A stretch of DNA of 64,000 bases from Sclerodactyla briareus (Eukaryota; Echinodermata; Holothuroidea; Dendrochirotida; Sclerodactylidae): positions 124,001 to 188,000 of the forward strand of contig JAODTK010002010.1 in assembly GCA_026419785.1 (NCBI GenBank). The letters run 5' to 3'. Position numbers and translations under genes: made by a program. The notes under the pieces were generated by a model. It did no database searches. It was not told where the DNA came from and saw only the letters and a list, made by a program, of their open reading frames with translations. How positions within the stretch are numbered: the first letter of the stretch is position 1; every line of letters starts with the position of its first letter. This document shows positions 8,626 through 59,849 of the stretch, piece after piece.

Positions 8626-8629
8626 CAAC

Positions 8630-31044: not shown

Positions 31045-33540
31045 CCTTGACGAAGTAGGAGGAATCTATGAAGTCATGCAGTTGTGTGTATGGGTGTGTG
31101 TGTGTGTGTGTGTGTTGTGGTGACGCCTGGCTTGTGAACACAATAAACTTGACCCCACCTGGATGGATGATGTGTTCACCATGATGAGTACATGACCCTT
31201 ATGTTTTGGGTCAGGTCAGAGGTCACTAGAGGTCAAAGTCTGAAAACTTGTGAACACGATAAGTCCAGAATGGTTGGTCTGTGGGGTTCAAATTTGGTGT
31301 GGTAGGTTTCTTTATGGGGAGTATCAGGAACCCTATTGTTTTTGGTGTTAAGGTCGGCGGTGAATTTTGGTGTTCAAAAATAGAAAAATTGTGAAAGGCA
31401 ATAATTTGTCCAATTTTGGGTTGTAAACACGATACTCCTCAACCCACCTGGATGGATAAAGCTCATACTTGATATGTTGTTCCCCCATGGAAGCGTACAT
31501 GAACCCTGTTGTTTTGGGGTTCCGGTCAGAGGTCATCTGAGGTCAACCAGAGGTTCCAGAATGGTTGGTCTGATCAGTTTCAAATTAATGTGTGGTGTGG
31601 CTTTCTTATGGGGATTACAGGTCCCCTATTGTTTTTTGGGTACAGGTGCGGGGGGTGAATTTTGGTCAAAAATAGAAAATTGTGAAAAGTCAAATAATTG
31701 GCCAATTTTGGCTGGTGAACACGGATAACTCAACCCCACCGGATGGATGAAGCTCAGTATACTTGATATGTGTGTTCCCCATGAAGGCGTACATGAACCC
31801 TGTTGTTTTGGGCAGGTCAGAGGTCATCTGAGGTCACAGAGGGCAGAAGGTGGTATGATCAGGTTCAAATTAATGTGTGGCTTTCTTATGGGGAGTACAG
31901 GTACGCCTATTGTTTTGGTACAGGTCGGGGTGAATTTTGTCAAAAAAAAAATGTTTGTGAAAAGTCCATAATTTGGGCAATTTTGGGATGTAAACACGAT
32001 AACTCCACCCCATCTGGATGATGAGCTCATACTTGGTATGTGTAGTTCCCATGATAATGACGGGTACATGGACCCTATTGATTTGGGGTCAGGTCAGAGG
32101 TCACCAGAGGTGTAAAGCTGATAACCTGTGAACAAGATAAGTCCAGAATGGTTGGTATGATCAGGATGGATATTTGGTGTGTAGCTTCCTATGGGGAGTA
32201 CAGGAACCCGATTCTTTTGGTTATAGGTAGGGGTGAATTTTTGTCGAAAATAGAAAAATTGTGAAAAAGTCAAATGTTGGCCAATTAGGATGTGAACATG
32301 ATAAATCGACCCAACCTAGATGGATGAAGCTCTCACTTGGTAGTTGTTCGATAATTGAGTCATGAACCCTATTTTGTTTTGAGGGCCACCATAGGTCAAA
32401 GTCGGAAATCCTTGAAATAGTGTGTAGCTATCTTATCAAGATTATAGGAACCTATTGTTGGGTGAAAAAAATGAGAAAAGTTGTCCACGTTATGTTTCCA
32501 CAATGAGCTGATACAATTTCTTTTTTTTTGCCATTTGTCCTTGAGTCTGCTATAGGTTGTTAGAAAGAGTCAAGAATCACTAAGCCTTTTGCTTCCTGGT
32601 TATAGTGAGTTTTAGCTCAACCCAGCATAGGGTGAGATATGTGATCCTGTATTTCTATCTATCTATCTGTTCACAGCTGATTCAAATTGCTACTACAGTG
32701 TGTGGTCGATCATACTGAAAAGCGGTCACAATGATCACGGAGTGGAGGGGAATCTGGGGGTTCATCAAGTTGTGGGCAAAGTCGCTAGGGTTAATTCAGG
32801 CCCTTTGGTGAAAAACTGCAAATGCTCTTTTCCTGCGTTCCAACGTCACAATGTGGCGTATTAGCGTGACCATGTACATACGAGGTCAAATGTCATCTAG
32901 GGGTAATTTCTGCCAAAAAGTTATTTTTGGGGTCAAACACAAAAAATGCTTCTTCTCCCAGAGATTGAATGACCATGATAGTTGGTCAATATTATTTTGA
33001 CAATGGTGCATAATGGGGTTCAGGAATTTTGAGGTCCAAATGTCATCTATGGGTCAATTTTAGTGTGAATATGCAATGCTTCCTACCGAAATTTGAATGG
33101 GCGATCATAATTGATCATTTATTATTGAGTGCCCATGCTTGCATACAGGGTTCTTCGGGATCTGAGGTCCAGGGTCATTTAGAGGTCATTTAGGCTAAAA
33201 TTCTTTTTTAGGGTCCATATGAACAAATCTTCTTTAATTCCACAGATTGATCAGATGGACATGCCTAGTATCACTATTACCATTGACTATAGTTACCTAT
33301 GGGTTTCATCAATTAGATCAAGGTCAACTGGGTTTCATTGCACAGCCACTTGTTGTAACGGTCAACAGCTCCTACTCCTCCGGAATAATGAATGATCATG
33401 AGTGTCCGGTTATCATGATTATCATTGACCAATAGTTTTTAAATGAGTGTCCTGAATTTGTAGTCAAAGGCCATCCTAAGCCTGAGGGCCATTACAGCCA
33501 TTTTATGTTGACATGTCCTTTGCCTCTATTACAGAATAAA
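31045..33540 (+). mobile_element. Composite satellite element 1 (Helentron-like, non-autonomous?)
   Basis: Order of parts: a left end, CCTTGACGAAGTAGGAGGAATC; a TG microsatellite (31080-31120); four to five copies of a roughly 300-base unit starting TGTGAACACGATAACTCGACCCC-like at about 31135, 31424, 31710, 31992 and 32293; a module AGTCAAGAATCACTAAGCC; an imperfect hairpin (32613-32639); a TCTA microsatellite; and then several copies of a second unit of roughly 150 bases carrying 'GAGGTCAAATGTCATCTAGGGG'. Elements 2 and 3 share the left end, the satellite and the right module. There is no ORF for a transposase or Rep/helicase. The class is inferred from architecture. Confidence 0.7.
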
Positions 33541-33740
33541 TGGCTGATAATGAGTTTCAGTTTTCATTAGCCAATGGCACATATGGGACCATGATTAAAG
33601 ATCAATTGGGGAAAATATATCAACATGTACTTGAACCACCACCTATCTTTATATATGCTCCATACTTTGTATAATAGAATAGGTTCGATTAGAGCAGATC
33701 AATAGCATGAACTAACTTATTACTATTCTCCTCTTTTTAG

Positions 33741-33874
33741 TTAAACCAATGCTTCAAAGTACAGGAGTCTACACAATCGTGACCGAGGAAGGTCAAAGCC
33801 CAGATACAGAGAATTTCATGCGTATCGTCATCGGTCTTCATTGTTTGGGAATGTTTTCAGTTTTGTGCCATTAG
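33741..33874 (+). CDS. GPR143: GPR143-like receptor, exon 6 (third inner loop, possible start of TM6)
   Basis: A CTCCTCTTTTTAG acceptor is followed by KPMLQSTGVYTIVTEEGQ, which lines up with the family's LLKGRQGIYTENE (GVYT for GIYT). It then reads SPDTENFMRIVIGLHCLGMF and a TAG at 33872. Human TM6 begins at the corresponding place (KIRFFKIMLVLIICWL), but the match after GVYT is weak. A possible donor GTGTTC follows the TAG. The 3' boundary is uncertain, and either the TM6 part is split off into an undetected exon or another indel disturbs the frame. Confidence 0.6.
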
Positions 33875-34589
33875 GTGTTCACTTTTTTATTCGATTTGAA
33901 TTCGACAAGGTGCACGGAAATTCAATTGGACTCAGCAAGAGAACCCTGATCCAAGCTGAGCGCCGGTCATGACTCACTTTCTCTGCTCGACAAGTGCTCA
34001 GTGATTTGAAGCAGGGGTTAACTAATCCCCCGACCTGCATGCTCCATGCGACTGCCATCTATGTCTCCATCCGTGAAGACAACCATGACCTCCAGAACTT
34101 GACCACTGTCTCAGACATAACCTGGAGGAGAGTACAAGTTCATTGTGACCGCTCAACAGCCGAACATACCAGACATATTGCACAAATATCCCGTAAAAAA
34201 TCCGTAACCCCGAGTACACTCCATTACAGGGGTAGCAAGAAGTGAAGAACCAAGACCTCCCTCCATCGTACTGCAGTTTCGAACCACCTGGGAAAAACAT
34301 CCGGTGCTGCTGGATTTGCGAACTCGGAATATTTGCTTGCCAAATGTCACTCTACCGTTCGTTCCCATGCTGTGCCTATAATGGTGTCTTGGTTGATATG
34401 CCACAATGATTTGGTGAAGTCATTTACTCTACTCATTATCTTTGCTAACAGTCATTTCCACTGTTTATGTTCTTTTTCTAATCTCTACACCCAGCACCCC
34501 CATGACCCCCCTCCCCCACCCTTATTACCTTCTTCAGAGCACCACTACTCCTGTTCTATTGCTTAGATGGACACTGTGTAGTAAGTCCC
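33875..34589. other. Intron 6, 5' part, nothing recognised
   Basis: The open frame continuing past 33874 in a second frame (to about 33970) is not similar to TM6. The rest has no recognisable feature. Confidence 0.4.
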
Positions 34590-34860
34590 CGGCCTGTCCC
34601 TGATGAAGTTCAGAGAGGAACTTATGATCACTTTGCCGTGTGTACGTGCTTGTCACGCTTGCCTGTTAGTAAGATTTCTTTCTAACTATGTGGTATCAGG
34701 GTTAATGAAGACAGTCTCATCAAATTTTTATTGTGAAACTCACTTATTGATCAGGCTAATAGCTGTTGGTATTGGTTCATGCTTATGTCATTTCTCTTGC
34801 ATTCTATCTATCTATCATTAATCACTTGACAAAAACACTGATCGCGAAAACGGAGTACTT
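34590..34860 (+). repeat. Fragment of repeat family A
   Basis: A weak copy of the family A left end, CCTGATGAAGTTCAGAGAGGA, is followed by TTATGATCACTTTGCCGTGTG. The spacing to neighbouring blocks is eroded. Confidence 0.5.
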
Positions 34861-35204
34861 GCGCTCATCTTTCCTCTGAGGGTTTAACCTATCTTTCTTT
34901 TCTCCCATCTTCATCCACATCTGGGCTCTAATGTAGTAAATTGGGATCCTACAGCTGCACCTGGCCGTCAGTAATGATAAGTTACACTGTGGCATCCTCA
35001 AATGGATGGTTTCCTGTAATGGTTCCTATGGTGAGCTATATACCATAATTACCAATCTTGTTACGTTCATGGATAGTTTAGCTATGTATGGTATATCAGA
35101 TTGGGTAATGTTTAACAGTGTCATTGAATGCTAACATGTGAAGCACAATTAATGGGCACACCTAGCTGCAAAGCTTAGGCTTCCGTGCATTAGTCTGTTT
35201 TTTC

Positions 35205-35245
35205 AATCCCGCCCCCCCCTCCCCCCCCCCTCCCCCCCCCCCCCA
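35205..35245 (+). repeat. C-rich homopolymer tract
   Basis: Runs of 7-12 C are broken by single T. Similar C-tracts at 35785-35798 and 35845-35860 lie nearby. The tracts are low complexity. Confidence 0.85.
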
Positions 35246-36029
35246 ACTCCCGAAGGAACCACAGCAAAGCTTGCTGACCGAAACATTTAGGCTGTCCCTC
35301 CTGATTATCACATATAATATATTATGTTACATCTGTAGGGCAGCACAAAATATATGGATTTTGATGCGCTGAGAAGAACAAGGCGATTGCCAAAAAGTGT
35401 CTCGCCTGGTTGGCGATCGGTGGTTTCTAATAATCACTACACACTATACACCAAGTTCACAACCAACTAGTCCATGCAGACCATCGTCCTTGTCAAACAA
35501 CATCACATATTTTCACATAAAACACATTAAAATTTCTAAAAATCCTGAAAGAACTGACTCAATAATTTTGACCCTTATTACAAAAGCCCCTAATTGCTTT
35601 TTTTTTTCAATGCCCCCCCCCACTCTTCTCTCCATAAATACCACCCAAATTTGAATAAAGTCTTATCGCTCAGTCACTGAGAATTTTCTAAATCCACTTA
35701 GCAGCTCGGGCTTCTTTGCCTTTTAAAATCATTCCTCACTATTCATTGCCTTTTTTTTCCAAACCGCCAGGACATGCCATCCCCCCCCCCCCCCTGCCAG
35801 CAACCAACCACCTCTTCGCCTCCACGACCCCTCCAACAACCTATCTCTCCCCCCCCCACCAGCAGATTCAAGGATGGTCTTCAAAATAGTCTTTAGAACC
35901 TCACATTTGTCCCCAGTCCCAGGCAAGAAGAGAGGAAAGAAAAATGTTTCAGTATTTTTGAATGGTCTAATCAACTTATCAAATTGGTTGGGTGAGAATC
36001 GGGTTGCTTTGTGGGCAGCTTATACGCAC

Positions 36030-36445
36030 AATGCCACCAGGAGCTAATGGTTCACTCGTTCCTCGTGCTTTATTCTAATAGCTTATTATATGATGGAATG
36101 CCAATCCAATTCATTAACATCAAACACAACAGATTCAGCAAAATGTGTACGGACCATACCTACTGATGTTGGCGAAATTCTTACCAAGTTGGCGAAATTC
36201 TTACAAGTTGGAAATTGCAAAATTAGGCACATACATGAGCTTATAATAACATCGTACAATTGTCACAGGAGCTATTGTTGGCTCGTGCTCAGTGCTTTAT
36301 TCTAACAGAACGATATAGATGGAATTCAAATTCCTGAATATCAGATACATCAGACCCAGGAATGTTAACGGACCATACCTACTTAGTTTGGCAAAAGTCT
36401 TACCAAGTTGGAAAATTGGAATATAATGCAAATTAGGCCATACAA
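36030..36445 (+). repeat. Two-copy tandem repeat of ~228 bases
   Basis: Blocks GGAGCTA.TG.T, GTGCTTTATTCTAA, GATGGAAT, and GGACCATACCTACT..GTTGGC, then CTTACCAAGTTGG, occur first at 36041-36210 and again at 36268-36415. The copies are diverged. The region downstream to about 37010 contains further eroded repeat-like text, for example GAAAAATCCTGCTAACGAGAA near 36820, which reappears near 47925. Confidence 0.6.
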
Positions 36446-37019
36446 TGACCTCTACTGGCCCCAGCTGTACCTCAAAATGATCTGGATCATGGTAATCCAC
36501 ATCCACCAATTTCCGTGAAAATCCGACAACTTGGACAATTTGCATAAATTATTCAAAGTAGAAGACCACTTAATTATGCATTTTCCAGGCTGAAAATCTT
36601 CATCCGTTCTCTACCGTCATCCAGGTCCTACATGCCAAACTACATCACTGTAGCACCAACGGTTCTTGCGTAATCTTGCTAAAGAGCTTCAACAATAAAT
36701 TACATAAAAATAAGCTAATTACCACCCAAATTATTAATGACTTTGCTGCCCAAATCTAATCAATCGTGTACACCCAACTCGGTGCTCACACAAAATTTCA
36801 GCATCATCGGCCTCACGTTTTCTGAAAAATCCTGCTAACGAGAAAGTGGGACATACACACCCACACATACAGCCAGGAACACAGCACACACCTCCATAGT
36901 GACCACTATGCTCTCCGAATTTCATTCCGGCCATGACAAACTGACTTGCACTAGATAACAAGAACATTGAGAGCAGTGACTCGAAGATGTTATATACGGT
37001 GAGACACAAGGAATGTTAT

Positions 37020-38509
37020 TCCTAACTGTTAGTGCAGCTAGAGCGAAAGCTCTAATGCCATAAAAAAATATTTTTCTGCAAGATCCTGTTTTAGCAACTT
37101 CCTTTAGAAATCAATTTTTCAAATTCTTTGTCTTTCCTGTATAATGTGGTCCATCTATTGTTCTGAGGTGATAAATTTATGGGAAGGGGTCACTGGAGGT
37201 ATCTAATTCACACATAACTTAATGCTAATTTCTAATTTGGTCACATGTTTCTCAAAACGGATGGTGGGAACTTGTTACTGGTTTTGGCATATTTATACGT
37301 AAGGCTCTCAAGGGCCTGCAGACTATAGTCATACCCCATGGTGAATGCTTTTAGGATCTCTGTTATATCTGCTAAAGCCACATGGCCTTTAATTCGGTAT
37401 ACTGGAAACCGCCAGTGTAGTCCCCTCCTCCCTCCTACCCCTGTCAAGACAGTTATACTACTTTGCTGTCTGCAATCAATTACCAATCATCTCCCTACAG
37501 GGACACGCCTGCCCCAGTAAAAGCACTAAGGCTGTTCACGGTTTCAAGTGGGCATGCTCACCACTCCGCAGTATTCGGGTACAGACCAGATTTTTGCAAT
37601 TGCTATTTCATTATGGCTTATTTTAAACTGTGACTACTCTTCAATCTTAACTCTTCCGAAAACGAAACCATTCATCTCATGTTTTTTGGTATGTTATTGT
37701 TTGTAAGAATGGGGGGAAATTTGTGTGCTGGTTATGAATGTAGTTTTTTCGGCAAGGATTTCAAAAGATCCCCCTTCTCCTGTTTGGGCTGCGTGTGCGT
37801 CCATTCCGTTCAATTTACTACCCGACTGACCTTTGTCCTCATATCATTATCATATCCCTATTCGCAACCGTGAACAGGCTTATAAAACTAAAGGTCTCAC
37901 TTGGTATTGGTCAGGGAAAGCAAATCTTCTATGTTTTTTTTCCGTTTCTCTCCTGGCTGCTTCTGGAGGCGAATTTTTACCTTGACACATTTGGATTTTT
38001 GTTGGGTATTTTTCCGGCTAGGATGAGTATGAATGTTCGGGCATGAAATCTTGTCGACCTCCCAGATTAGGATATTGAAACCAATTAATGGCTCCACAAA
38101 GTGACCACTGATCGTTGAACAGGCGAGACAAGCAAACTCAAGACACACTGTCCAGGCATGAAGTTTGTTCATTCGTCCTTGTCACCATGCAGAGGATATA
38201 GCACACACGAGTCACAAGCCTAGAGGCAAATGTCAGATGACAGATTCCCTTTACACACTACAGATAGAAGAGAACCATCAAAACCCCATCCAACATTTGG
38301 AGTTCTAGCAAGTTGTCCTATGAGGTTCTTGTAGTTATTGTTGATGAATTCAAGGAATCTTTAATGCATGCGGGAAAATTCTAGGTTGCCCATACACCTA
38401 CACAGTAATGCTGTATTTTTGCGCCTTGATACCACCAGACAGTCGAATCGAGGGTATTCACTCAGAATGCGTGAGATTGTTTCTGCAAATGTCTTGTCCC
38501 TTGCAACAT
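37020..38509. other. Intron 6, middle, nothing firmly recognised
   Basis: One hydrophobic open frame at 37795-38046 (IFYVFFPFLSWLLLEANFYL) was considered for the missing TM6 exon but not accepted, because the flanking splice sites and conserved residues do not fit well. Confidence 0.35.
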
Positions 38510-41500
38510 TTTTTATATTCCTTGAACGAAGTCGAGGAATCTATGCACATGCCAGTGGTGTGTGTGTGTAGGTGTTATGTGTGTGTTTGTGTGTGTTGTA
38601 ATGTGTGTGACACCTGCTTGTGAAAACGATAACTCGACCCCACCTGGGATGGATTACTCTTACTTGTATTGTGTTCCCCATGATGAGTACATGAACCCTA
38701 TTGTTTTGGGGTCAATCAAAGGGTCAAAGTCCTGGAAACCTTTTGAACACGATAAGTCCAGAATGGTTGGTCTGATCGGTTCAAATGTGGTGTGTGCAGC
38801 TTTCTTATGGGGAGTACCTAACCCTATTTTTTTTTGGTATAGGTCAGGGTGGAATTTTAATCAAAATATAAATTTGTGAAAGTCCAATAATTTTGGCCAA
38901 TTTTTGGCTTTTGAACACGATAACTCGACCCACCTAGATGAAGAAGCAGTCATAACTTTGGTATGTGTGTTCCCCATGATAGTAATGACCCCTATTGTTT
39001 TGAGGTCAGGTCCAAGTTCATCTGAGCTCACCAAGAGCAAAGCCTGGAACCTTGTGAACACTACTAAGCCAGAATGGTTGGTCTGACGGGTTCAAATTTG
39101 GTGGTGTGTAAGCTCTCTTACGGGGAGTACGGAACCCTATTGTTTTTGGTATCGGTCGGGTGATTTTGGGTCTAAAATAGAAAAATTTTGTGAAAAAAGT
39201 TAATAATTTGCCAATTTTGGCTTGTGAACACGATCACTCTACCCCACCTAATGAATTAAGCTCATACTTGGTATGTATGTTCCCATGATGAGTACATGAC
39301 CCCATTGTTTTTGAGGTCAGTCAGAAGTCATCTGAGCTCACCGAGGGTCAAAGTCGGAAACCGTGTGCACCCGAATAAGTCCAGATGTTGGTCTGACGGG
39401 TTCAAATTTGGTGTGTAGATCCCTTACCCTTACTGGAGTACAGACCCTATTGTTTCTTGGTAGAAGGTCGGGGTGAATTTTGGTCGTCAAAATTAGAAAA
39501 TTTGTGAAAAATCAATATGGGGCCAATTTTGGCTTGTGAACACGATAACTCGACCCCACCCTGTATGAGAAAGTCATTTTTGGTATGTGTGTTCCCCATG
39601 ATGAGTACATGAACCCTATTGTTTTGATGTCAGGTCAGAGTTCATCTTAGGTCGCCAGAATTCAAAGTCTGAAAACCTTGTGAACCACGATAAGTCCAGA
39701 ATGGTTGTGTCTATCGTGTTCAATTTGGTGTGTAGCTTTCTTGTGGGGGAGTACAGGAACCCCCAATTGTTTTTGTATAGGTCGGGGTGAGTTTGGTTAA
39801 AATATAAATTTTTGAAAATCAATAATTTTGGCCAATTTTGGCATTGTGAAACGCTAACTCGCCCCCACCTGTAATGATGAAGTCATACTTTTAGGTAGTG
39901 TTCCCCGTATTGGAGTATCATGAACCCTATTGTGGTGGGGTAGGTCATAGGTCATATAAGTCATACAGCGGTACCATCTCCCATTTTCCTGTTTCCTGGC
40001 TATAGTTTGTCAGGAATAGTCAAGGAATCACCTAGCCTTTTGGCTTTCTGAAGTTTTTAGCTCACCCAGCATGTGCTGAGTGGTGAGCTATTGTGATCCT
40101 GCATGTCTATCTATCTTCTATCTATCCATCTATCTATCATCTATTTATCTATCTATCTATCTATCATCTGTCTGTCTTTCTGTCTGTCTGTCTGTCAAAA
40201 TTATTCAAATTTCCTATCCTATGGTGGATGGGTGATCAGATGAACTTGGTCACATGAGCACTGAGTAAAGGAGCTTCGCTTTTTCAGGATGTGAGGTCAA
40301 AGTCATTCAGGTCATTTTGCTAAAAACTGCAAAATACTTCTCCTACAGTTCACATCCGATTTCATGAAACTTTGGTCACTCGTGACCATGTTTCATGCGG
40401 AGTGTTCAGGAATTGAGGTCAAGGTCATCTAGGGGTCTTTTGGCCGAAAAAGGTGATTTCTGTGGTAAAACAAACGAATGCTGCTTCTTCCCACAGATTG
40501 AATTAGATGCTCGTGGATAGTTGGTCCAGTTTTCATTGACAATGGTACATACGGGGTGTTTCCGGCATTTGGGATCAAGGTCTCTAGGGGACAATTTTGG
40601 TCATTTCAAATCGGTCAGCGGCTCTCCTAACATTTCAAAGCGAGCTCTCATGCAACTTTGGGGGTCATTTGTTAACTAAAAAAGGCTCATTTTTTTGGTC
40701 AAACAAACAAAACCTCTCCTTCCGAGATGCATTGGATGATCGTGATAGATAGTCAGTATTACCATTGACCCCTGTACCTTTCGGGCGGGTGTTCATGAAT
40801 GTGGATCAAATGTCATCTAGGGGGCATTTTTGTCATTTCGTTCAACAGTCAAGCGGCTTCTTCTCCACAGGTTGAATCAGATGCTCATGAAACTTAGTCT
40901 ATTATCGTGAAGAGTATTACATATGGGATGTTCAGAATTTGAGGTCAAAGGTCATCTAGGGATAATTTGGGCCAAACAGCTCATTTTTTAGCTCAAACAA
41001 CAAAACGCTTCTCCTCCCAGAGATTGAACTGTAGTGCCCAGATAGTTGGTCCCCTATTATCATTGTCCAATGGTTCATACAGGTGTTCAGGAATTTTGAG
41101 TCAAAGGTCATCTATGGGGTCAATTTTTGGCCATTTTTGGTTCAAACGGTCAGCGCTTCTTCTCCTATGGGACAGATTGCCGATCATAAAAATTGGTCAG
41201 TATGATCAGTGACCAGTGGTACTTATGTGTTGTTCAGGAATTTGAGGTCAAAGGTCATCTAGGGGTCAATTTTGGCCATTTGGGTCAAATGGTCAAGCGG
41301 TTCTTCTCCTATGGGACAGATCAGACTACCAAGAAAGTTGGTCAGTATAATCATTGACCAGTGGTACGTTAGGGTGTTTAGGATTCAAGGTCACGTCATC
41401 TAGGGTCATTCGGCCATTTTGTTGCATGGTCCAGCTGCTCTCTTCCTACAGAATAGATTAGATGATCATGAAAGTTGGTCAGTGTAATCATTGACTAGTG

Positions 41501-41940
41501 ATACATATTGAGTGTTCAGGAATTTGAGGTCAAAGGTCAGCTAAGATGGTCCTTGGGCCATTTTGTTCAAACAGTCAAGCGGCTTCTGCTATGGGACAGA
41601 TAGACGATTCATTGAATTGGTCATTATAATCATTGAGCACCAGTGAATGATGTGGGGTGTTCGCAGTTTGAGTCAAAACAATCCTTCCACAATACCACTG
41701 AAGTCACCACATCTTGCTGTATGTAAGAATTGTTCAGCTTGTGATAGCAAGTGCTTATAATAGGTCTAAGGTTGAATACTGATAAGTCTGTAATGAGGTG
41801 TACAAAAGGTCATCTGAATTCTTGTAACAAATTAACCTAAGTTAACTCTTCCACATCACCAGGGGAAATCACTAAACCTCTGGCTTGCCGGTTAGCTCAC
41901 CCAGCTACATTGCATGTGGCTGGATGTTGAGCTAAGTGCC
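38510..41940 (+). mobile_element. Composite satellite element 2 (Helentron-like, non-autonomous?)
   Basis: It has the same plan as element 1. Parts are the left end TCCTTGAACGAAGTCGAGGAATC; a TG microsatellite (38550-38610); about four to five satellite units starting near 38618, 38908, 39221, 39533 and 39842 (spacing about 290-315 bases); the module AGTCAAGGAATCACCTAGCC; a hairpin TAGCTCACCCAGCA / TGCTGAGTGGTGAGCTA (40058-40090); and TCTA then TCTG microsatellites (40110-40196). Next come about ten diverged copies of a roughly 150-base unit with GAGGTCAAAGGTCATCTAGGG, and finally a second hairpin at 41892-41935. It is the most complete copy. It fills much of the last intron of the GPR143-like gene. 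Confidence 0.75.
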
Positions 41941-42837
41941 TTTTTGTTTGGCTGATGAGGATGAAACTTGGTCACAACGTTCATCAATTTAAGAACATCT
42001 GGGTTGTTTTCAGGATTTCAGGCCCAAGATCCAGTGTGGGCCCCTGGCCCCATTATGTAAATCATGCATAGAATGCTTCTTCTCCTCCGAATTTTAGTGC
42101 TAGTGCTGATATTCAATCATGATGATGTTCCAATAGGCGTACCTTCAGGGTGCTCAGAAAGTTTGGGGTCCCAGGCCACATTCCTTCCCATTTATGAAAT
42201 TAAACACAATGATGCTTGAAATGCACTTCCTCTACAAGCTTCAGTTGATTTTCCCTTTGAACCTGGGAGCAATGATCTTGTGTGGACCATTTGGGTCATT
42301 GGACCTATGGATCATTTGGGCTGTTACCTCAATCTATCACTTCCCATCACATTGCACAAGTAGAACCTAAACAACAAACCAATGTACACATACAGTACCA
42401 GGATGAGCTACTGGGTGCCATGGCACTCTTGTTCTATTTGGATCCTTTTTATAGTTTGTTCATTACAGAGTTTTGGGGTTCGACTTGCATAATGTAATGA
42501 ATACAAAGTACCAAAAGTGAAGTCATATTTATATGGCCATTGGCATTTATCAAAGGTAGGTCGCTGAAATCATGCCATAACCTGTAGACAACCCTTAGGG
42601 AAACTCAATCCCGTTTAAAACCAAAACCTACAGGCATACCAATCTGGGCCAGAAAAAAACACCCATAGACATCTATATCAATGAGAAACAAGCTATGAAT
42701 TAATTCAATCTTGTGAGTGATTGAATAGGGTAGTCAGTAGGGCGATATGTTGTTGACAAATTCATTAAAACAGCTCAAGTCGTGCATTACGCCTTTCAAT
42801 ACATCACGGTCTATTTCCTTCTTTTCTACCTGACCAG
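41941..42837. other. Last intron, 3' end
   Basis: The first 400 bases read like a further, diverged relative of the array in element 2 (GATGAAACTTGGTCACAACG, AATGCTTCTTCTCCTCCG). The final 300 bases end in the pyrimidine tract CTATTTCCTTCTTTTCTACCTGACCAG that serves the last exon. Confidence 0.45.
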
Positions 42838-43046
42838 TCTCTCCTGAATCCTATGCAAGCATTCCTCAATGCCCTAGTGTACTGGGGGCCACTGCTGTGC
42901 CAAGATCCAATCAAGAGGCCACCATTGATTCCCTGTACCAGGACACGACGTACAGCATCTTCCCCGGGATGACTGGCCATACTTCCCTAAACACCGCATT
43001 CTCTAATGGAGAGCAGACACCTCTCCTCAGAAGCATGAACATGTGA
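42838..43046 (+). CDS. GPR143: GPR143-like receptor, last exon (TM7 end, C-terminal tail, stop)
   Basis: The exon opens SLLNPMQAFLNALVYWG, matching the family's ILNPAQGFLLSLAFYG with the NPxQ motif of TM7. After the run of five G at 42884-42888 the frame must shift by one base (one G probably missing). It then reads ATAVPRSNQEATIDSLYQD and ends GEQTPLLRSMNM before TGA at 43044. EQTPLL fits the acidic dileucine signal [DE]xxxL[LI] used for sorting to lysosomes and related organelles, as expected for this receptor. Without the shift the frame stops 54 bases or so before the tail finishes. The 5' acceptor is canonical. Confidence 0.85.
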
Positions 43047-43054
43047 TATCACAG

Positions 43055-43310
43055 GGAGGGCGGTAGAGCGGTATCAGTGCGAGTGAACCATCTGCGTTCA
43101 AATTCCACCAATCACCAGGGGATTTTCCCTGGTGTGCCCCCAGTTGGGATGAGGGAGGGCTTTGTCTTCTGTTCATGGTGTCTTATTCGGGGCTGTGGAC
43201 CCAGGGGGTTTGGAGTGCACTCGGAGATATTTGCAGTTAGTCTCATTGGTCAGCTATGAGGACTCCGTTGGACAGAAATTTTTCATCCATCCAGGTTCCA
43301 AGAAAGTGGT
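43055..43310 (+). mobile_element. Possible tRNA-derived SINE in the 3' UTR
   Basis: GCGTTCAAATTCC near 43091 looks like an RNA polymerase III B box, and GGCGGTAGAGCGGTA near 43060 like a weak A box, spaced as in a tRNA. A GC-rich body with TTCCCTGGTGTGCCCCCAG follows. It begins about 10 bases after the GPR143-like stop codon, so it would form most of the proximal 3' UTR. No second copy was found in the window. Confidence 0.4.
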
Positions 43311-44886: not shown

Positions 44887-44892
44887 AATAAA
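44887..44892 (+). promoter_or_regulatory. Candidate poly(A) signal AATAAA
   Basis: AATAAA in ATACAGAATAAATTTTTG lies about 1.85 kb after the stop codon, followed by T/GT-rich sequence. It is the best 3' UTR end I see for the GPR143-like gene, but the true site could be elsewhere. Confidence 0.35.
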
Positions 44893-45189
44893 TTTTTGAA
44901 AAGTTTAGGCTGATATTCTTCTCCTGAATTTAAAGTTTTATGTACACTTTTGGAATATGTGTGAATATTTTTCTATGATATATTTTATGACAAGCATTTA
45001 GAAAGTTACCTCTGTGGTTGACTTGTTCTGTTTAATTTTGCGAACAACTCAAATGTAGCACGTTGCTGAGGAAACCTGAATAAGTGGCAGATTCAAGACA
45101 AAATGTAGGTAATTTAATATGTACTTATTTGATTGTTGGTGGTGGTAGATTATTTCTCTTACTGTAGCACAGAGAGGGAGCCTGCTTGA

Positions 45190-45530
45190 GAAGAAAATCG
45201 TATGAATTTTACAGCATACCAACACAGCATTCATTTCACTCTTGAAACACAACTAGGTATGACTTCTACAGCATACCAACACAGCATTCATCTTACTCAG
45301 GTGATACAAATTGTTATCAATTTTACATGTACAACATATCAACTCAGCTCTAATTTTTACACAACAGATACAACTCAGTATGGAATTTCACTGCTACCAA
45401 CACCACAACAGTTGAATGGTACTCATGGGATACAAAATTGCTATGCTTCTACAGCATACCAACAACATCCGAGATGCAATTTGTTATCCATTTTACAGCA
45501 CACCAACACAGCATTCATTTTATTCAGATT
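45190..45530 (+). repeat. Degenerate repeat with ACAGCATACCAACACAGCATTCAT
   Basis: CAGCATACCAACACAGCATT occurs at about 45212 and 45270, with weaker copies near 45330, 45460 and 45496. The intervals are uneven (about 35-130 bases). A 132-codon open frame at 45202-45600 exists because the unit lacks stops in that frame; the product, rich in T, Q, H and Y, is not a recognised protein. Confidence 0.6.
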
Positions 45531-47029
45531 GTTCATCAGGAGTTGTGTTACGGCTTTTCCCCACTACTTGTTACAACTTGGCATAAGGCTATGCTGTTAA
45601 TTCTGCAATTTTGACATCTATTTACACTGACAAGAGACCTGTTCAACTGCCTCAAGCCACTTCACAAACTCACGAAATTGAGAAAATTTAGTGAAAACAA
45701 ACAAACCAAGCTTTTTTACATTCTCCTAGAGTTTTGACCACTCTTTTTGTTTCACCCAATATTCAAATATCTGAAATTTCCAGCTTCCATATTGTCTCAC
45801 GATGGTGACAAATTAACGGCCGAGAGGTTGGCCGATTGTGCACATTTTAGCGTACTACTAAATTTAGGGCTCCTCGCCATGGGGAGGGGGGTATACCTCA
45901 TCCTGCAGCCATGATTTTAGCAATGTTCTCCAAGATCATGAGATCACTCATCACATAGAATGTTTACCCTCCATTATGCAGTGAAGAATGTACAAAACAC
46001 AAGTAAATATTATTTTTATTCGCAATATTTTGGTGTAGAATACTAGAGGCTCTTTTTGATTTTTTTTTTTATGATGTAACAATATATGCTCCAGAATTTA
46101 TGACAGGCATTGAGAATTTCTTTTATCTGGCGGTTACTTTTAGCACTTGTATCTGATGTTTCCATATTATTACCCTGTAAATTATTCAGTCTGATTCATG
46201 TTTAGTGTTTCTAGTGATCTAAATTGAAAACTGGTACTGTTCTGCAGCCCATGCATTTAATGGCTACTATGTGCTATTTATGTAATAAGTATACATGAAC
46301 ATATTACTGTGTTCAAATGTGTGGCGGTTTGTCCGTCTCGTATGACCAAGTTTGTTCTGTGAACCTCCACATCCATCGTTCTCATATTAATTTATGTAAC
46401 ATAGCTTGGTTGACAACCAGGCATCCTAGCCTCGGTTGGGACATCTCCCACTTTCTGGTAGCATGTGCTGTCTTGCAGTTGTTGGGTTGCGGGCTTTTCA
46501 GATTATAATTCCCACCAAATTTTTCAAATTTGTGAGGAGGCTAGGTCTCTTGATCACTCACGTCTACAAACTGTGGTCGGTGATAAGCCAGAGCATGCTC
46601 CCCATAGGAATTCTGCTCCAACCAAGCCTCATGGCAATACGAAGCATGGAACACACGCCAGCCCAAAGGCTGGGGTGGGCTTGTTTACCTGCCTCCTTAA
46701 AAACGTAATTTCATGCAAAACTTCGCTCTGGGTCGTGCAAGCAATGGCTTATATCAGGTTCTTGCAGTTTCTGGCGAATGCATTTTCCATTAATTTTCCG
46801 TGACTTTTCCAACACCAAGATGAAGAATTTTCCATGACCAATTTGCTTGATGTCCACATAAAAACAGGCGCCTCGCAGCTTGGAAACAGCGGAAAGCCTA
46901 ATGCCACTTTGGGGAGATTTCCTTGACTTGGAACAATTTTTCTAAATTCAAAAATTTTTCGAGCCTGATTTGCGTTCCCAAAAATTCATGACTTTTTACG
47001 ACGTTTCATGACTGACTATATGATGTAGG
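45531..47029. other. Intergenic, nothing recognised
   Basis: There is no supported gene. Short overlapping open frames at 46317-46803 have no motif I know. Confidence 0.4.
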
Positions 47030-47290
47030 GAGACAGGATGAGCGGCTTGGAGTGCAGATTCCTGGTTGGAATGTAGGAAGTCTGTGTTGGGAGGGGGGAC
47101 AAGTGCGGGGAGAGCGGTAGGAAGAGGAGGGCGGGTGGTGTTTGTTTCCAGGAAGTAAGATGGAGAAGCTGGGATGATGGGGAGTCAAAGAAAGGAGGTA
47201 CAGGCTGTGGTGGTCGAGGGAAGATGAAGTGGGGTGTTATAGTCTTGGGGAGGAATGTACTCTGTCGAGCAGGTTGGGAAATGTTAGAGA
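47030..47290 (+). repeat. Purine-rich (GGA/GAAG) tract
   Basis: About 250 bases are strongly biased to G and A on the + strand (GGGAGGGGGGACAAGTGCGG and similar). The complementary pyrimidine strand yields serine/proline-rich open frames, which I take as composition artefacts. Confidence 0.6.
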
Positions 47291-49754
47291 AGGCGACGAG
47301 TGATGGTGAATAATACTGGCTTCCGAGGAACATAATTCAGAGAGGGATGTCGGCTAGGTGGTTCACCATTTATACAACATTGTGACACAGTTTGTCCTGC
47401 TTTCATTTCAAGTGGTCCCAAGTCAAAGTTTTTTTGTAAAGATTCTAGTAACAGTTCCTGGTTCCTACAGGATTCTGATTAGCAAAAGCTAGCAGCTGCT
47501 GATGTTATACTATCAAGCATTAACGTTTATTGATGGTAGGGATTCCATGATGTAGAGGCATAATGAAGTATTGTAGGACATAGTTTCAACTTTCTGAATA
47601 CAGTCCAAAAATGTCTATGAATGACACCAAGCACACGCTGGACCTTCTTGACAGTTTGGAATGTGTGGAGAGACCAATTCCAATGTTTTCTGTGACTCCC
47701 GGTACCCTCTGCAGTACAGTATTTGCCCAAGAAGTGTAGTCCTCACTGGCGGTTTCCCCTCTTTTTGAAATTTGAGTTACACATGTTCCAGAACGATTCC
47801 TCTGTATTACGATGATAAATTAACATAAAGGCGGTTACTAATGCTTTCAGTGACCAAATTCTAATAAGTATCCAATGGTTCACCTAACATTATTCTCATC
47901 AAAATTTCATCAAAATCAGTATCGAAAAATCCTGCTATCAGAACGGGTCACCCACACACCCGCCAAACTGAATCGCTGACGCTAAGTCTCTTCCTGATTT
48001 ATGTCACAGGCAAGACACAACTATAGAGTAAGAATCTGGTATGTAATTATAATTTATTCTCTGAGCATTTACCCAACTAGATAGCAATTGTATCATGTTG
48101 GTGGCATGCAATTCTGAGTAATCATTTTTTGTCCAAATGTCAGGAGCCAAAAAACTATGGACCTAGGTTTCAATGAATATTCCTTCAACTGCCACCCCGT
48201 ATCTCCTACATAAGATATCGCTATTAACATAATATAGACGAATGGTGCATGCAATTGAATTGCAAAAAATCCAAAGTGATCATTTCCTGTCAAATGTCCC
48301 GCCTAAATTAATGGATGCCTAGGTGAATACCACAGTGAAATGCCAACTTTGATTCGTGAGAGCAAAGTTCCTGATATTATAGAAGCACGTCCCTGATTAA
48401 ATCAGGGGTTTTTTCTTCTGAATGACCAGCCATCCTGTCAGGTTATTAGGAAGTGCTAATTCTGAACATGCATTTTTTGGGTCCATGAAATATTGCCGAG
48501 ATGTGAATGAGCAATATCTCTATTGCACAGAATGTGGATCTTCATAAAAATCATTATGCAGAGAACGAGCAATACATAGGTCTAGATCATTATGCTTAGC
48601 TGTGGAGAAACCTGTTATCACTGTTCCAATTCGCTACATCAACGACAGAAATCGGGAAGGATTCACGGTTGACCGTACAGTGGCAAGCTCACCGCTCACT
48701 GAAAGCCACACAGTACCACCATCTACAGACGGTTAGATAGCAGAGATGCTATTTACAGTACATCTCCCCGGCCTCTCCACAAATGCCCCAGGTAACCGCC
48801 ATGTTTCCTCGCTCCATCACGTAGCAAAATCAATGTAAAAGCAAACTTCCATGTGGATTAGGTTTAGATGGACGTGAAATGAGACAGACACAACCGTCCA
48901 GATAGGCCTCCTTCCATCAGAGCCACACAGACACGTGTTGGTGCTAGGGATGGGAAAAAGAGGGGTTCTCCTGCCTAATTGCTGAATGAAATCTTCCCAA
49001 ACTGTTGTCCACGGGGTGAAAAACATTCTGGGTTTCGGGCTGTTCGGTGTTACTGCAAAGAAAGTTCCCTATTTCATTCTAAAATCCCCCTTGAAATGAA
49101 CAACAAGAGGGAATTCCTCCTAGAAGCTTAAAAGCTTCGCGCCACAATGCCCCAGAACAACCACCTGGAGGCATGCCTCGGCAGATTCCAACATCAACAC
49201 TCAAGAAGTCTTCCATAATAATCAATTGTTCCATGTCTTGGTTTTTGTCCATTGTGTGAGGGCACTGAATGGAAAAATCGCAAAAGATAAGGGAGGTGGT
49301 CCCTCAAAGTCATTATTCATGATTGATTTTCGTGGATTTCAGATGACCCAATTGGCATGAGGCCTATTAGATACTGGGAATCATAATGCAAATGATCCAT
49401 CTTGTCCTCACAGTCATGAATTGATGGATATATTGATTTTTTTTTATATCATTGCTCAAGTCTCACCAGGAAGTACTCGGGGTTGGCAACAAGAACTATG
49501 AGGTAATATCAGGAAAAAATTGATGCATTACCATGGTGAAAGTGGTCACAATGGTCCCCCCATACCCCCTCTGACTTTCAAACCATGAACCCCAACTGGA
49601 TTGGACATTGCTATCTTCTATGAAACATATTGGATCATTTTCTAGTGAATACCAATGGGAAGAGATTCGCGATTCAGAAGGCTGCTGTGATCACCTCTTC
49701 AAGGCCGCCAACTTCAGAGGATTTCTCATTGCATGAGTGACCCCTCTTTTACAG
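47291..49754. other. Intergenic, nothing firmly recognised
   Basis: A block near 47880-47975 (ATTCTCATCAAAATTTCATC, then GAAAAATCCTGCTATCAGAA) resembles 36780-36860 and is probably an old interspersed repeat. Upstream exons of the lipid phosphatase candidate should lie here if it is a complete gene, but I could not find its KxxxxxxRP-type exon. Confidence 0.35.
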
Positions 49755-50115
49755 CAGAAACCAACACGATCAGTTCTCAAGGTGGGATCATCTCCACTCC
49801 TCTGTCATTTCCACGACCACTCCAAAATTCGTGCCGGAAGCCGCCTTCCGTCACCATTATGGCCATTCTGGCCCTGCCAGGTATTGTACTACCCCTGTCC
49901 CGGTGGCTGCCGGGGGCCGGGTTCGCTGCCGCTGCTCTGCATCTTTCTCGTGAGCTTCTTCCCCTAGGACTCGTGGATCTCCAGGTACTTGGCCCCCGAT
50001 CGGTCAGTAACACCGCTTCACCATTGGACAGATCCCCCTAACGGTGGTAGTATTTTAGGAATGACTTCTTATGGCAGGCTGTGTTAATCCTGGAAAATGT
50101 AAAGCAAGACAGGAG
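49755..50115 (+). CDS. PAP2-type lipid phosphatase-like exon (broken frame)
   Basis: An acceptor CTCTTTTACAG precedes the exon and a donor GAGGTATGTC follows. One frame carries YGHSGPARY, reminiscent of the PSGHS motif. A second carries hydrophobic sequence (SLPLLCIFLVSFFP), then SRYLAPDRSV and HHWTDPPNGGSILGMTSY. The last part resembles the third catalytic motif SRx5HxxxD and following glycine-rich helix of phospholipid phosphatases, for example HHWQDVLVGSMIGMT in PLPP5 as recalled. Several one-base shifts are needed, and the SR to H spacing is longer than usual. If real, it dephosphorylates lipid phosphates at a membrane. Not enough is seen to name the subtype. Confidence 0.4.
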
Positions 50116-50436
50116 GTATGTCGCAGGCCTGGCCATTGTGTTCGGTTGTTTCGTGTGGTAATGTGCTGTAACATCAAAGCCGTCCAAGTATTTCTGTTGT
50201 GTGAGGGTTACATTACACTTAGGAGTGGTTACACCATAATAGAGGGCGCTGAGGAAATTCGGACTTCTGGCCAAGGACATGAGGCAAACTGGCAGGAAGA
50301 GAAGACACTGTGATGGTGCGATGAACCTTGAACATTAAGCAAGCACAGTGAAAGAAAAGCAAAACAACTCTTGCAGTTGCTCCTTTTAAGTTCCAAAACA
50401 GCCTTGATTGTATGTCTTCTTTCTGCCTCTTTCCAG

Positions 50437-50479
50437 CCCCGAAGCTACCCTAGACTATGATATAATTGAAGTATATTGA
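50437..50479 (+). CDS. Possible last exon of the lipid phosphatase candidate
   Basis: A good acceptor (TTCTGCCTCTTTCCAG) is followed by a short open frame, PEATLDYDIIEVY, then TGA. The position, about 320 bases after the candidate donor at 50116, suits a short terminal exon encoding a cytoplasmic tail. There is no sequence match to support it beyond position and splice site. Confidence 0.25.
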
Positions 50480-51240
50480 CTGTTACAAGAACTATAATTG
50501 AAAGATCGGTGGCTGGAACGATAGTAATTAGGTCCAACTTTGTAATTTTGGGAATAGGCCCCGTGGCCAGAACATTCAAAATTTGTTGCAGCCGGCCGCT
50601 CCTTGAAAAGTCGGTGACTGATCACCATTTCCCTAAGGACTAGAGATGATGAGTGCCGTAATTATGACTGAAAGTTCTTCTTGAGATGAGGATATCGAAA
50701 CGAGGACATCATTTTTCCAATATCAATGATGCTTATTTCTCGAATATTTCGAAGGCTAATTGTAACTATTTAATAATAACACAGGATCCACTCACTCTCA
50801 TTAATGGGAGCAACATGCCTGGAAGGAGACAGTGCAAGCATTGCAGTTGGGAAATGTGTTTGTAACAACTCTGATAGTCAATGTATATGACCTGAAACAA
50901 ACAAGCACCCGTATATGTATCCATTGGTCACGGGGACCCAGTGTAAATTTAATCCCTGAGGACCGAATGAGGGACCTAAAAACAAACACTTTCCTGATCA
51001 AACAATCGAACTGAACATTTAGCTCTTCTTTACAGAATGGCTGGACAGTAGTAACTACAGTATGAGGTGACATTTGACCTTCAACGATCGACGCGCCGCG
51101 GCAAATTGTTTTTCTTCCGATTTTGGCCCTGCATAACAAAGAATGCAGGGCAAATCCTATTAGAAAATTAGTGTTGTCTTTGTGTGGTACGGTACCTTCG
51201 TTGCGTACCCATTCCATTTATTTTGGGAGATGTACGCCTG
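50480..51240. other. Intergenic, one unexplained minus-strand open frame
   Basis: A 138-codon open frame lies on the minus strand (50801-51217). It has ten or so cysteines and no motif I recognise, no clear splice sites and no second copy, so I do not call a gene. Confidence 0.35.
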
Positions 51241-51250
51241 ATTATTAGGA

Positions 51251-51277
51251 GGGGGGGGGGGGGGGGGGGGGGGGGGG
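51251..51277 (+). repeat. G27 homopolymer
   Basis: This is an uninterrupted run of about 27 G. On this strand it can form stacked G-quadruplex structures. A second G-rich cluster with runs of 8-14 G lies at 56250-56300. Confidence 0.9.
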
Positions 51278-51733
51278 AGATACAATAGGAGGATTCCCCC
51301 AACTCCAAAGATGGGGAGATGTATGTCCCTCCCCTGACCCCCCCTTGCCCCACCCCTCCAGGATTACGCCTATGGTATTTGCAAGGTGTCTTGAGATGGT
51401 CACTTATCTGTTTCAGGCTAAGTTTGGTCCCTGAGGAGCAAAATAATAGGCAAGTTCAGAGGCCAAGGGCCTACTGTGGCTGAAATTGTGGGAATTAGTG
51501 CGGAAGCTATTGAAAATTATACTTTTGATCCTTATTTTTAGTTCACACATAATACAATTTTGCCTGGAAAGAAGAGATCACTACGGCCAGAAAATTTGCC
51601 GTGAACTGAAGGATTTGCCCTTCCAGTTAAGTTAGGTAGCTACTGGGAAGCAGGAACGGGATGGCATGGAGTGCATGAATTCCCTATTGTACCCACTACC
51701 CATGCCTATAGAGTACACACTTTTACAGTTAAA

Positions 51734-52050
51734 CTTGTGTGAGCAATTGTTGCAATGTAGTGTTTAGAGAGAGGGAGTCAACAAGGAGACAAACTTGGGC
51801 CAACTTGGCAGTATGTGGCAACTTCGGCGTGTATGACATGGTACCAGAGATTTGCTGATTGTTATTGTCTGAGCCCCCCCCCCCCCCAGATTCCCAGACA
51901 GTATTAATTGTGTTAGCAATTGTTTGCAATGTACGTTTAGAGAGAGGGCGTAAGGGACAAACTTGGCCAACCTGTGGGCAATGGGAACTTTCGGCGGAGC
52001 ATGGTACCAGAGATTTGCTGATTTGTTATTTTCTGAGCCCCCCCCCCCCA
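51734..52050 (+). repeat. Two-copy tandem repeat of ~172 bases with C-run
   Basis: The first unit (from 51736) and the second (from 51910) share AGCAATTGTTGCAATGTA, TTAGAGAGAGGG, ACAAACTTGGCCAAC-like, CATGGTACCAGAGATTTGCTG and a run of C at the right end. Each copy begins with GTGTGAGC or GTGTTAGC. The open frames on both strands follow from the duplication. Confidence 0.85.
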
Positions 52051-52849
52051 GGATTCACAAATTCCCCTTTAAAAGATGTTAAGGGGGAGGGGGAAGGAAA
52101 TCACCACATTTGGGTCTAGCACTGGAAATGTTGCAGTGTCTCTGTGTAAAGGTAAGAGGTTGCAAGAGGGGAGGAACTGTTTCGTCTGGCCAATTCGACC
52201 ATGACCACCGCGATCCACTATGTCTTGGGGTGATCAGGATTGGCTCGTGTAAATTTTATATTCTGTGACTCTGCCGGTATACATTTGACAGTTTTATAAT
52301 TCCTTGTGCTAACAACCCCTTCGAGGTTAAGAGAGAAAACACGGGGTAGCTACATATAGGTTAGTCATACTCGTAAATCAGTGCAAAAAGAGAGAAGGAA
52401 GTAGGAAATCAATTTATACATCAGAAAAGAAAAAAATGACTGGAAATTACTTGCGGTCAGGTGCCGCGACTCCAAGAAAGAAGCTCCAGGCAAAGAGCGC
52501 TCTGCACGAGAAGCATTTGTGAAGAAATACTACTTAAGCAGTTGGGAGACCGTGATACCTCTTGCTCGGAAAAAAACAAAAATCATACTCAGGGAGGTTC
52601 AACATTAACAGTTTGGAGGACGCAATAAACCTCTGCGCAAAGATTGTGATTACGTTGGGCAGAGGTTGAATCACTGACCGTCCGGATATACGAGACTCAA
52701 CCTACTAACATTTCGTGTTGCATTATCAAAGACAGCTTAGTGCTAACGAGCAAAATGGTGGGCAGATGCTTATTATGTGTGACATCATTTAATACTAAAA
52801 GAATGGCAATTATGGAGACAAGTTTTCAAGAGCATAGTAAGTTGAGGCT

Positions 52850-54530
52850 TTCATAATAAACCAGAAAGCCACAATGCTTAGTGATTCCTTGACTCTTTCT
52901 GACAACCTAAGCCAGACACAAGGACAATGGGAGATTGTACCCTTGTTATGGCAACATACATCTGTCAAATTTTCCCACTTTTTTCCCAACCCCCTAGTGT
53001 CCTATACCTTGATAAGATAGCTACATACTAATTTCGAGGATTTCAGAATTTGACTCGTGGTGACCCATCAAACAGTAAAGGGTTCAGACTAATCATCGGA
53101 AACAAAATAATACCGAGTATGAGCTTCATCCATTCAGGTGGGTCGAGTTTATCATGTTCACAGCCCAAAATTGACCAAAATAATATTGACTATTTTAAAC
53201 AATTCTCCTATTTTCGACCAAAATTTCACCCCACCTGACCTATACCAAACAACAAAGGTTCCTGTACTCTCCTAAGAAGCTAACACAAATTTTCAACCTT
53301 TCAACCCGTCAGACCAACCATTCGGACTTTACCATCATCACAAGGTTTTCAGACTTTAACCCTGGGCCCTCACGATACCCTGACCTAACCCCACAACAAT
53401 ATGGTTCATATACTTATCACAGGGGAACACACATACCAAGTATGCACGTCATCCATCCAGATGTGCCGATAGTCGTGTTTAACAAGCCAAAATTGGCCAA
53501 ATTATTGATTTTCACAAATTTTTGTATTTTTGATGACCAAAAATTCCCACCCCTCGACCTATACAAAAAACAATAGGGTTCCCTGCACTCCCCATAAGAA
53601 GCTACAACATATTTGAACCCGATCAGACGCAACATTCTGGACTCATCGTGTTCACAAGGTTTTCAACTTTGACCTCTTGTGCCTTCTCCGATGATCCTGA
53701 CTGACCCAAACAATAGTTCATGAACCCATCATGGGGAACACACGTACCATGTATAAACTTCAATTCATCATGTGGGGATTAGAGTGATCGTGTTCACAGA
53801 TCCAAATTGGCCAAATCAATTGATTTTTCACAATTTTTTCTATTTTTGACCAACTTCACACCCCGACCTATAACCAAAAACATGAGGTTCTGGACCTCCC
53901 ATCCTTAAGAAAGCTACACACTAAATCGAACCCGATCAGAACCAACCATTCGGACTTCATGTGTCACAAGGTTTTCAGACTTTGACCTCTGGTGACCTCA
54001 GATGGCTCCTGACCTGACCCCAAAACAATAGGGTTACATGTACCATCATGGGGAACACACATACCAGGTTCTCAACTTCATCCATCCATGTGGGGTTCAC
54101 GTATCGTGTTCACAAGCCAAAATTGGCAAAATTATTGACTCTTTTCACAAATTTTCATTTTTGACACAAAATTCACTCCGACCTTTTACCCAAACAATAG
54201 GGTTCCTGACTCCCCCACCTTAAGAAAGGCTACACACCAAATTTTAACCCAATCAGACCAACCATTCTGGACTTATCCTGTTCACAAGGTTTCACACTTG
54301 AACCTCTGGTGACTTCAGATGACCTCTGACCTACCCCAAAACAATAGTTTCACGTACTCATTATTGGGAACACACACCCTAAGTATATGAGTTCCATCCA
54401 TACCAGGTGGGGTTCGAGTTATATCGTGTTCACACAAAGCCAGCGTCACATACACACATAACACATACATAGACACACACTTTCAATGAACTGCATAGAT
54501 TCTTCTGGACTTCGTCAAGGAAATCAAAAA
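52850..54530 (-). mobile_element. Composite satellite element 3, inverted
   Basis: Read on the minus strand it repeats the plan of elements 1 and 2. The left end, CCTTGACGAAGTCCAGAAGAATC, is at about 54498-54525. It is followed by a TG-type microsatellite (54450-54480) and about five satellite units bounded by TCGTGTTCACA on the + strand near 53150, 53472, 53791, 54108 and 54422, spaced about 315 bases. The right module AGTCAAGGAATCACTAAGC is at about 52877-52896. The hairpin and the second array are not seen. It lies outside the receptor gene, so the element is dispersed. Confidence 0.75.
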
Positions 54531-59580: not shown

Positions 59581-59849
59581 ATAATGATTTTTAAATTTTT
59601 GCAAGGCTAATGCATCTACGCGGAAATGGCTACAGAACCGCCATGTCGAGCCAGTATACTCGTCATGTAACAATACAAACCCGTAGTCGGCACAACAAAA
59701 ATGGGACGTATTGGTTGTTCATGTCTCCGACAAAAAAAACAAGAGCACCTTGTGCTGTACTCAAACTGCACAAATTTACCGGGGACAGATGTATAATTAT
59801 GTGATAAATGTTCAAGATCATGATGTCAAGAAAGGTAGTTTTTCAAAGA

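Follow-up and report, generated by a model that had tools for sequence, protein, structure and literature searches.

Probable Helentron-type elements carrying satellite arrays, and a second family adjoining them, in a 64-kb window from Sclerodactyla briareus

A stretch of 64,000 nucleotides from contig JAODTK010002010.1 of Sclerodactyla briareus (the window, from whose first base all positions are counted) contains three related elements, E1 (31.04–32.60 kb, + strand), E2 (38.52–40.05 kb, +) and E3 (54.52–52.86 kb, −), to which a left end, a TG tract, a tandem array and a right end are common. We read them, with a probability of about 0.82, as old copies of one non-autonomous Helentron family (a HINE, here family A), whose past movement would have depended on the Rep/helicase of a Helentron not seen here. 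Our evidence base is the 64-kb window together with published descriptions; with its short reading frames, microsatellites and dispersed repeats, the window looks eukaryotic.

Common plan of the three A copies

Three elements sharing a left end, a TG microsatellite, an array and a right module had been predicted from the sequence, and this was borne out by blastn inside the window and by an edit-distance scan. E1 and E3 share 72.4% identity across 1,752 columns, right end included, E1 and E2 share 72.3% across 1,489 columns, and E2 and E3 73.9% across 1,497 columns. The right end falls within the main alignment in the E1–E3 pair only, that of E2 forming a separate alignment (82.7% across 81 columns with E3, 77.0% across 126 columns with E1), and similarity between element pairs ends within about 10 bases of the left end. 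Best-match fuzzy searches can skip copies, and both ends were therefore rescanned with full edit distance. The left end occurs at 31,044 (+), 38,519 (+) and 54,520 (−), at distances of 3, 1 and 3, with no other match in the window and none in three shuffled windows; the right end occurs at 32,568 (+), 40,019 (+) and 52,894 (−), at distances of 1, 2 and 1, with a further weak match at 33,464 (+, distance 4), three shuffled windows giving 0, 1 and 0. The short motifs offered as markers in the original prediction are not significant singly: AGTCAAGGAATCAC, allowing up to two mismatches, has two matches in the window against 0.68 expected (equalled in 17 of 100 shuffles), and TTCCTTGACGAAGTC, allowing up to three, has two against 1.50 expected (equalled in 41 of 100).

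The idealised left end drawn from the three copies is TTCCTTGAC-GAA-GTCGAGGAATC, and none of them carries it exactly, E2 having one extra base in the 5' arm and E1 and E3 having changes. Complementary arms stand at the two ends (5' TTCCTTGAC, 3' GTCAAGGAA): both are exact in E3, in E2 the 3' arm is exact and the 5' arm has its extra base, and E1 has small changes in both, whilst five shuffled windows contain exact arms 0 and 0–1 times, respectively. Subterminal inverted repeats (subTIRs) are thus present at the left and right ends, and an inverted repeat (IR) complementary to the 5' subTIR is clear by folding in E2 alone (z −2.3; 5 of 200 shuffles do as well), whilst in E1 and E3 it has decayed. 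A few bases ahead of the left arm stands a T-run, of 3 bases in E1, 6 in E2 and 5 in E3, and the TG tract and arrays provide a left-flank microsatellite and central tandem repeats. On the right, GTCAAGGAATC, complementary to the left arm, is followed by a small palindrome around AAGCCTTTTGGCTT and then by CTG(G). E1 and E3 have in common a segment that separates the final unit from the right end; it is missing from E2. At E3, the only copy of simple structure, inspection by eye showed no flanking duplication; an inverted repeat with 11-base arms and one mismatch (52,842–52,875) spans its right end and flank. Sequencing noise may have contributed to the divergence of the elements; the gap-to-mismatch ratio is 0.12–0.16 for element pairs and 0–0.38 for control repeats under the same aligner (other repeats of the window, by blastn, 0.04–1.02).

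The core had been described as 4–5 copies of a unit of roughly 300–315 bases. Tandem Repeats Finder (TRF) calls the array in all three copies, but the A unit of about 310 bases is a dimer of two related half-units, h1 and h2 (consensus lengths 141 and 166 bases, alignment score 45, best of 200 shuffles 26). Spacings are 113–148 bases for h1, shortest in E1, and 162–179 for h2, and the order h1 h2 h1 h2 h1 h2 h1 h2 h1, nine half-units or 4.5 dimers, is found in each copy. TRF called the TG tract in E1 only, and both the TCTA tract and the second array described below in E2 only; where TRF made no call, as for TG in E2 and E3, the tract was identified by reading the sequence. Units of one copy have a mean identity to each other of 0.77–0.82 (h1) and 0.83–0.85 (h2); for units of different copies the means are 0.79–0.80 and 0.83. 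Because the units diverge equally within and between copies, there is no sign of homogenisation after insertion. We infer that the array of the source element was uniform and already of this size, was copied as a block, and has since decayed without homogenisation. Positional orthology of the units is unsupported, as good or better a result being reached in 2544 of 14400 arrangements for h1 and 410 of 576 for h2. The one exception is the last h1 stretch, with an identity of 0.82 between E1 and E3 against 0.68–0.79 for either with the other's remaining h1 units; its length had been set uniformly at 165 bases, and it may take in the post-array sequence that E1 and E3 have in common and E2 lacks. 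Elsewhere in the window, a stretch of about 80 bases (57,547–57,628, −) is similar to the A array (73%, blastn), and the region surrounding it looks by eye like a degraded array.

Family B and its junctions with A

According to the original prediction, the two + strand copies add a hairpin, a TCTA microsatellite and a second array within one shared architecture. These additions are present, but only the A part conforms to one architecture; we interpret the remainder as a second HINE-like family, B, which has a left end of its own, is placed head to tail with A and stands without A at 9.3, 60.4 and 61.2 kb. Behind the A right ends of E1 and E2, the B left end consists of a T-run and the hairpin AGCTCACCCAGC-x-GCTGGGTGAGCT, followed by a TCTA tract and an array, the unit of which is about 137 bases in E2. 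Six B left ends lie in the window (after E1, after E2, and at 41,893 +, 9,328 −, 60,442 − and 61,247 −), five of them with TT directly ahead and the 9.3-kb one with TTGT. Folding was computed for four of these six hairpins, each of which did better than all 200 of its shuffles (z −3.6 to −5.3). Downstream on the same strand, three sites, 8,631 (−), 59,768 (−) and 42,399 (+), are built alike as B right ends: sequence resembling the left arm's complement comes first, then a palindrome, then CT[AT]GTT. Two copies, at 9.3 and 60.4 kb, have both ends. Between A half-units and B elements there was no blastn match at E 0.01.

At three junctions (32.6, 40.05 and 41.89 kb) an A-type right end is succeeded by a B left end, with about 14, 8 and 2 bases, respectively, from the A end to the hairpin. 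The 38.5-kb element had been taken to end at 41.9 kb; its chain in fact continues to about 42,433 and closes there, after two B left ends, with the only B right end recognised in it. Upstream of the other B left ends, an A right end was not significant, scores against E1, E2 and E3 being reached by 43, 209 and 169 of 500 shuffles at 60.4 kb, by 224, 168 and 357 at 61.2 kb, and by 360, 413 and 469 at 9.3 kb; nor was a decayed B hairpin behind E3 (476 and 304 of 500 shuffles).

Chains like these are attributed in the literature to a termination signal being bypassed, to one element inserting next to another, or to rolling-circle replication whose products have several 5' ends but only one 3' end (PMC4067079, PMC5148889, PMC12628747). 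Adjacent insertion, either of B into the T-run at an A right end or of A into a T-run just upstream of B, has in our estimate an even chance: all three junctions are T-rich or have TT, and neighbouring unlike elements are documented, with Helitrons directly adjoining one another in bat and maize (PMC4067079) and FoHeli4 lying 2 bp from another element (PMC5148889), but the order and orientation are identical at all three junctions. Alternatively, and more doubtfully, A and B may form one composite, mobilised whole whenever the inner terminator is passed over, so that both satellites would spread at once. The sequence of A right end, T-run and B left end in E1, in E2 and again inside the E2 chain would fit such a composite, and the two B left ends with a single recognised right end resemble plant arrays, covered in a review (PMC12628747), in which several 5' ends are combined with just one 3' end; however, E3 has A without a detectable B, B stands alone at three places, no B right end is recognised behind E1, and the junction spacing varies. 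Both are variants of the HINE reading, and neither is firmly preferred. It is unlikely, though conceivable, that the whole is a compound rolling-circle element in which skipping of the inner A terminator lets one transposition seed two unrelated satellites, the A-right/B-left junction acting as a reusable linker repeated within the 38.5-kb chain.

Classification and competing explanations

The pearl-type/HINE identity first proposed suits the plan of A (5' subTIR, IR, microsatellite, array, 3' subTIR, small putative 3' palindrome, left T-run, no protein found) and fails as a single architecture. The order of subTIR, IR, microsatellite, array, subTIR and putative palindrome in A is that of Cg_HINE from Crassostrea gigas, which is described as having a 5' subTIR (11–12 bp there), a short spacer, a complementary IR and a left-flank microsatellite, then a short satellite-like array in constant orientation, a 3' subTIR, a palindrome and T-rich insertion sites (PMC7492417). 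In the same description, the Cg_HINE consensus monomers are 138–181 bp, against the A dimer of about 310 bases (a comparison by description), and two of 11 elements have two arrays, the difference here being that the second array has its own left end. Pearl, DTC84 and MgE of bivalves, as described there, likewise hold short central-repeat arrays in comparably built elements, the Pearl repeats differing from the A dimer in being about 160 bp long (PMC7492417). HINE/DINE-1 elements, as presented in PMC4067079, resemble A in having inverted repeats in subterminal position, which in mite families are palindromic, a palindrome at the 3' end (putative in A), variable T-strings at the boundaries, and microsatellites or tandem repeats inside some copies; they differ in the length of the mite subTIRs (12–15 bp versus 9–11 bases shared here), and no partner Helentron was seen among the 30 reading frames of our window that were scanned. 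Sea urchin Tsp elements are counted there as DINE-1-like, some such elements having tandem repeats (PMC4067079). The Helitron2-type FoHeli elements of Fusarium (PMC5148889) have GAA between the left-end hairpin arms in FoHeli1 and FoHeli2, as in A, and, as here, asymmetric inverted repeats, and one adjacent insertion is described for them, as may have occurred here; unlike ours, they are fungal, with transposase-bearing as well as non-autonomous copies and other terminal sequences. Canonical Helitron1 elements have 5' TC, 3' CTRR and insertion between A and T; the recognised right ends here, CTG(G) or CT[AT]GTT, and the T-runs that precede the left ends tend to speak against that class, the termini being approximate.

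By analogy with the family, A would have been replicated by a rolling circle from its 5' end to the 3' palindrome and inserted into T-runs. Each copy has an array of 4.5 dimeric units, probably ready-made, and in E1 and E2 the B left end, with its own TCTA tract and array, follows the A right end within about 8–14 bases, the gap ending in a T-run. A Pfam scan of 30 of the 177 reading frames of at least 70 amino acids left 28 without a match and gave two weak, sub-cut-off matches to families unrelated to Helitrons, and Rep, double-tyrosine and Walker A patterns were absent from six frames, a scan that a decayed Helentron could have escaped. Four patterns searched in viral contigs and one in genome contigs gave no matches, though records of the window's own genome may be excluded there, and of four end sequences sought in literature text, only the B subTIR string was found among the matches listed, under unrelated titles.

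Several observations weigh against assignment of A to the Helentrons. All the copies compared come from this one window, and no partner element was found among the reading frames scanned in it. The left-end fold of A beats its shuffles in E2 only (E1 z −0.2, E3 z +0.8), and an isolated exact arm, TTCCTTGAC, lies outside the elements at 46,919–46,927. A palindrome is visible near the 3' end in three A and three B right ends, all short, and none of the six beats its own shuffles; a generic scan for 11-base palindromes found 35 in the window against 11–20 in five shuffles, the A left ends not among them, and palindromes with CTNGTT behind them are no commoner than in shuffled sequence (5 in the window, 2–9 in ten shuffles). 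The B right-end pattern (mean 0.13, maximum 1 in 100 shuffles) was composed after its three sites had been seen, so that its shuffle figure flatters. To these are added the uneven junction spacing and the inner A-like end of the E2 chain, which does not match the right end of E2 itself (91 of 500 shuffles).

Two explanations without a Helentron were considered. Ordinary satellite arrays or duplicated segments with similar neighbours, and no transposon, would suit half-units of 113–179 bases, a size like that of satellite monomers; they are highly improbable given two fixed ends in three places and both orientations, similarity that stops within about 10 bases of the left end, and an identical array layout in all three copies. 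A miniature inverted-repeat transposable element of the terminal-inverted-repeat type, moved by a DD[E/D] transposase with target duplications, would account for short inverted repeats near both ends, yet this asymmetric repeat lies subterminally, with a left arm that forms a palindrome of its own and an additional small palindrome beyond the right arm, and E3 shows no duplication by eye; we consider it very unlikely.

Neighbouring repeats and significance

A third family, D, may be another HINE. Its left end, 5–6 T followed by GTCTCGCCTGAACTTTGTTCAAGGAGA, occurs in three + strand copies (2,763, 13,714 and 29,737) at edit distances of 0, 0 and 2, with none in three shuffled windows (with a shorter pattern and looser matching, 20 shuffles gave 3). 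The left arm resembles a palindrome, the flanks ahead of the T-run differ among copies, and a 148-base array at 14.1 kb (TRF) lies inside one of them. None of the three left-end hairpins beat its shuffles, and the search for a right arm was not discriminating, with 36–53 matches in shuffled windows and a similar number in the window. The window further contains a direct repeat of about 0.9 kb (22,254–23,087 and 24,470–25,355; 84%, with gap openings, 55, about equal to mismatches, 54), an inverted dispersed repeat of 77% identity (16,000–16,598, inverted, and 28,476–29,063), and a minisatellite of roughly 20-base units (10,995–11,652). By eye, the reading frame at 62,449–62,700 (+), which has no Pfam match, resembles the tail of a reverse transcriptase of the non-long-terminal-repeat type.

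Table 1 Coordinates of the A, B and D features in the window.
Feature	Position	Strand	Basis or remark
A-type left end E1: 5' subTIR, GAA, IR	31043..31066	+	Decayed palindrome; TTT just upstream
TG microsatellite E1	31083..31119	+	TRF
A array E1: nine alternating half-units	31133..32376, right limit approximate	+	TRF
A-type right end E1: 3' subTIR, AAGCCTTTTGCTT, CCTGG	32568..32599	+	
B-type left end after E1: TTTT, AGCTCAACCCAGC, IR	32610..32645	+	Not folded
TCTA tract and B array of E1 chain; no right end recognised	32647..33604	+	Aligned with E2 B part; no TRF call
A-type left end E2: best-kept palindrome	38518..38542	+	Extra base in 5' arm
TG-rich tract E2	38556..38610	+	Read from sequence
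A array E2: nine half-units	38619..39960, right limit approximate	+	TRF
A-type right end E2: AGTCAAGGAATCAC, AGCCTTTTGGCT, TTCTG	40018..40050	+	
B-type left end after E2: TTTTT, AGCTCACCCAGC, IR; strong hairpin	40054..40101	+	z −5.3
TCTA microsatellite of E2 chain	40106..40193	+	TRF
B array of E2, ~137-base units	40304..41677	+	TRF
Second A-like right end inside E2 chain	41864..41892	+	Shuffles reaching score: 0/500 vs E1, 4/500 vs E3, 91/500 vs E2
Second B-type left end of E2 chain, hairpin	41891..41935	+	z −3.6
B-type right end closing E2 chain: subTIR-like CAGGATGAGCTA, palindrome, CTTGTT	42399..42433	+	
A-type left end E3	54494..54522	−	
A array E3: nine half-units	53000..54434, lower limit approximate	−	TRF
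A-type right end E3: subTIR, AAGCATTGTGGCTT, TCTGGTT	52859..52894	−	No B left end detected behind
Separate B element	8600..9331	−	Left-end hairpin ~9,329, right-end pattern 8,631
Separate B element	59738..60446	−	Left-end hairpin ~60,442, right-end pattern 59,768
Further B left end ~61,247; no right end recognised	60450..61250, lower limit arbitrary	−	
D family, fixed left end behind T-run (GTCTCGCCTGAACTTTGTTCA)	2,763-4,340; 13,714-15,370; 29,737-30,222	+	

Family A adds one more member to a type of element already on record: HINEs that carry satellites, double arrays and Helitrons in tandem have all been published, as has the seeding of satellites by such elements in Crassostrea gigas (PMC7492417). 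Similar elements are already known from oysters and fruit flies, and those described here are an ordinary new example. They offer a clear, small case of Helentron-type elements carrying satellite units in a block of fixed size, in which dispersal of a ready-made array is favoured over growth in place because the same nine half-units are present in all three copies and there is no sign of later homogenisation. The head-to-tail A–B chain, in turn, gives a handle on the question of whether such elements move as composites.

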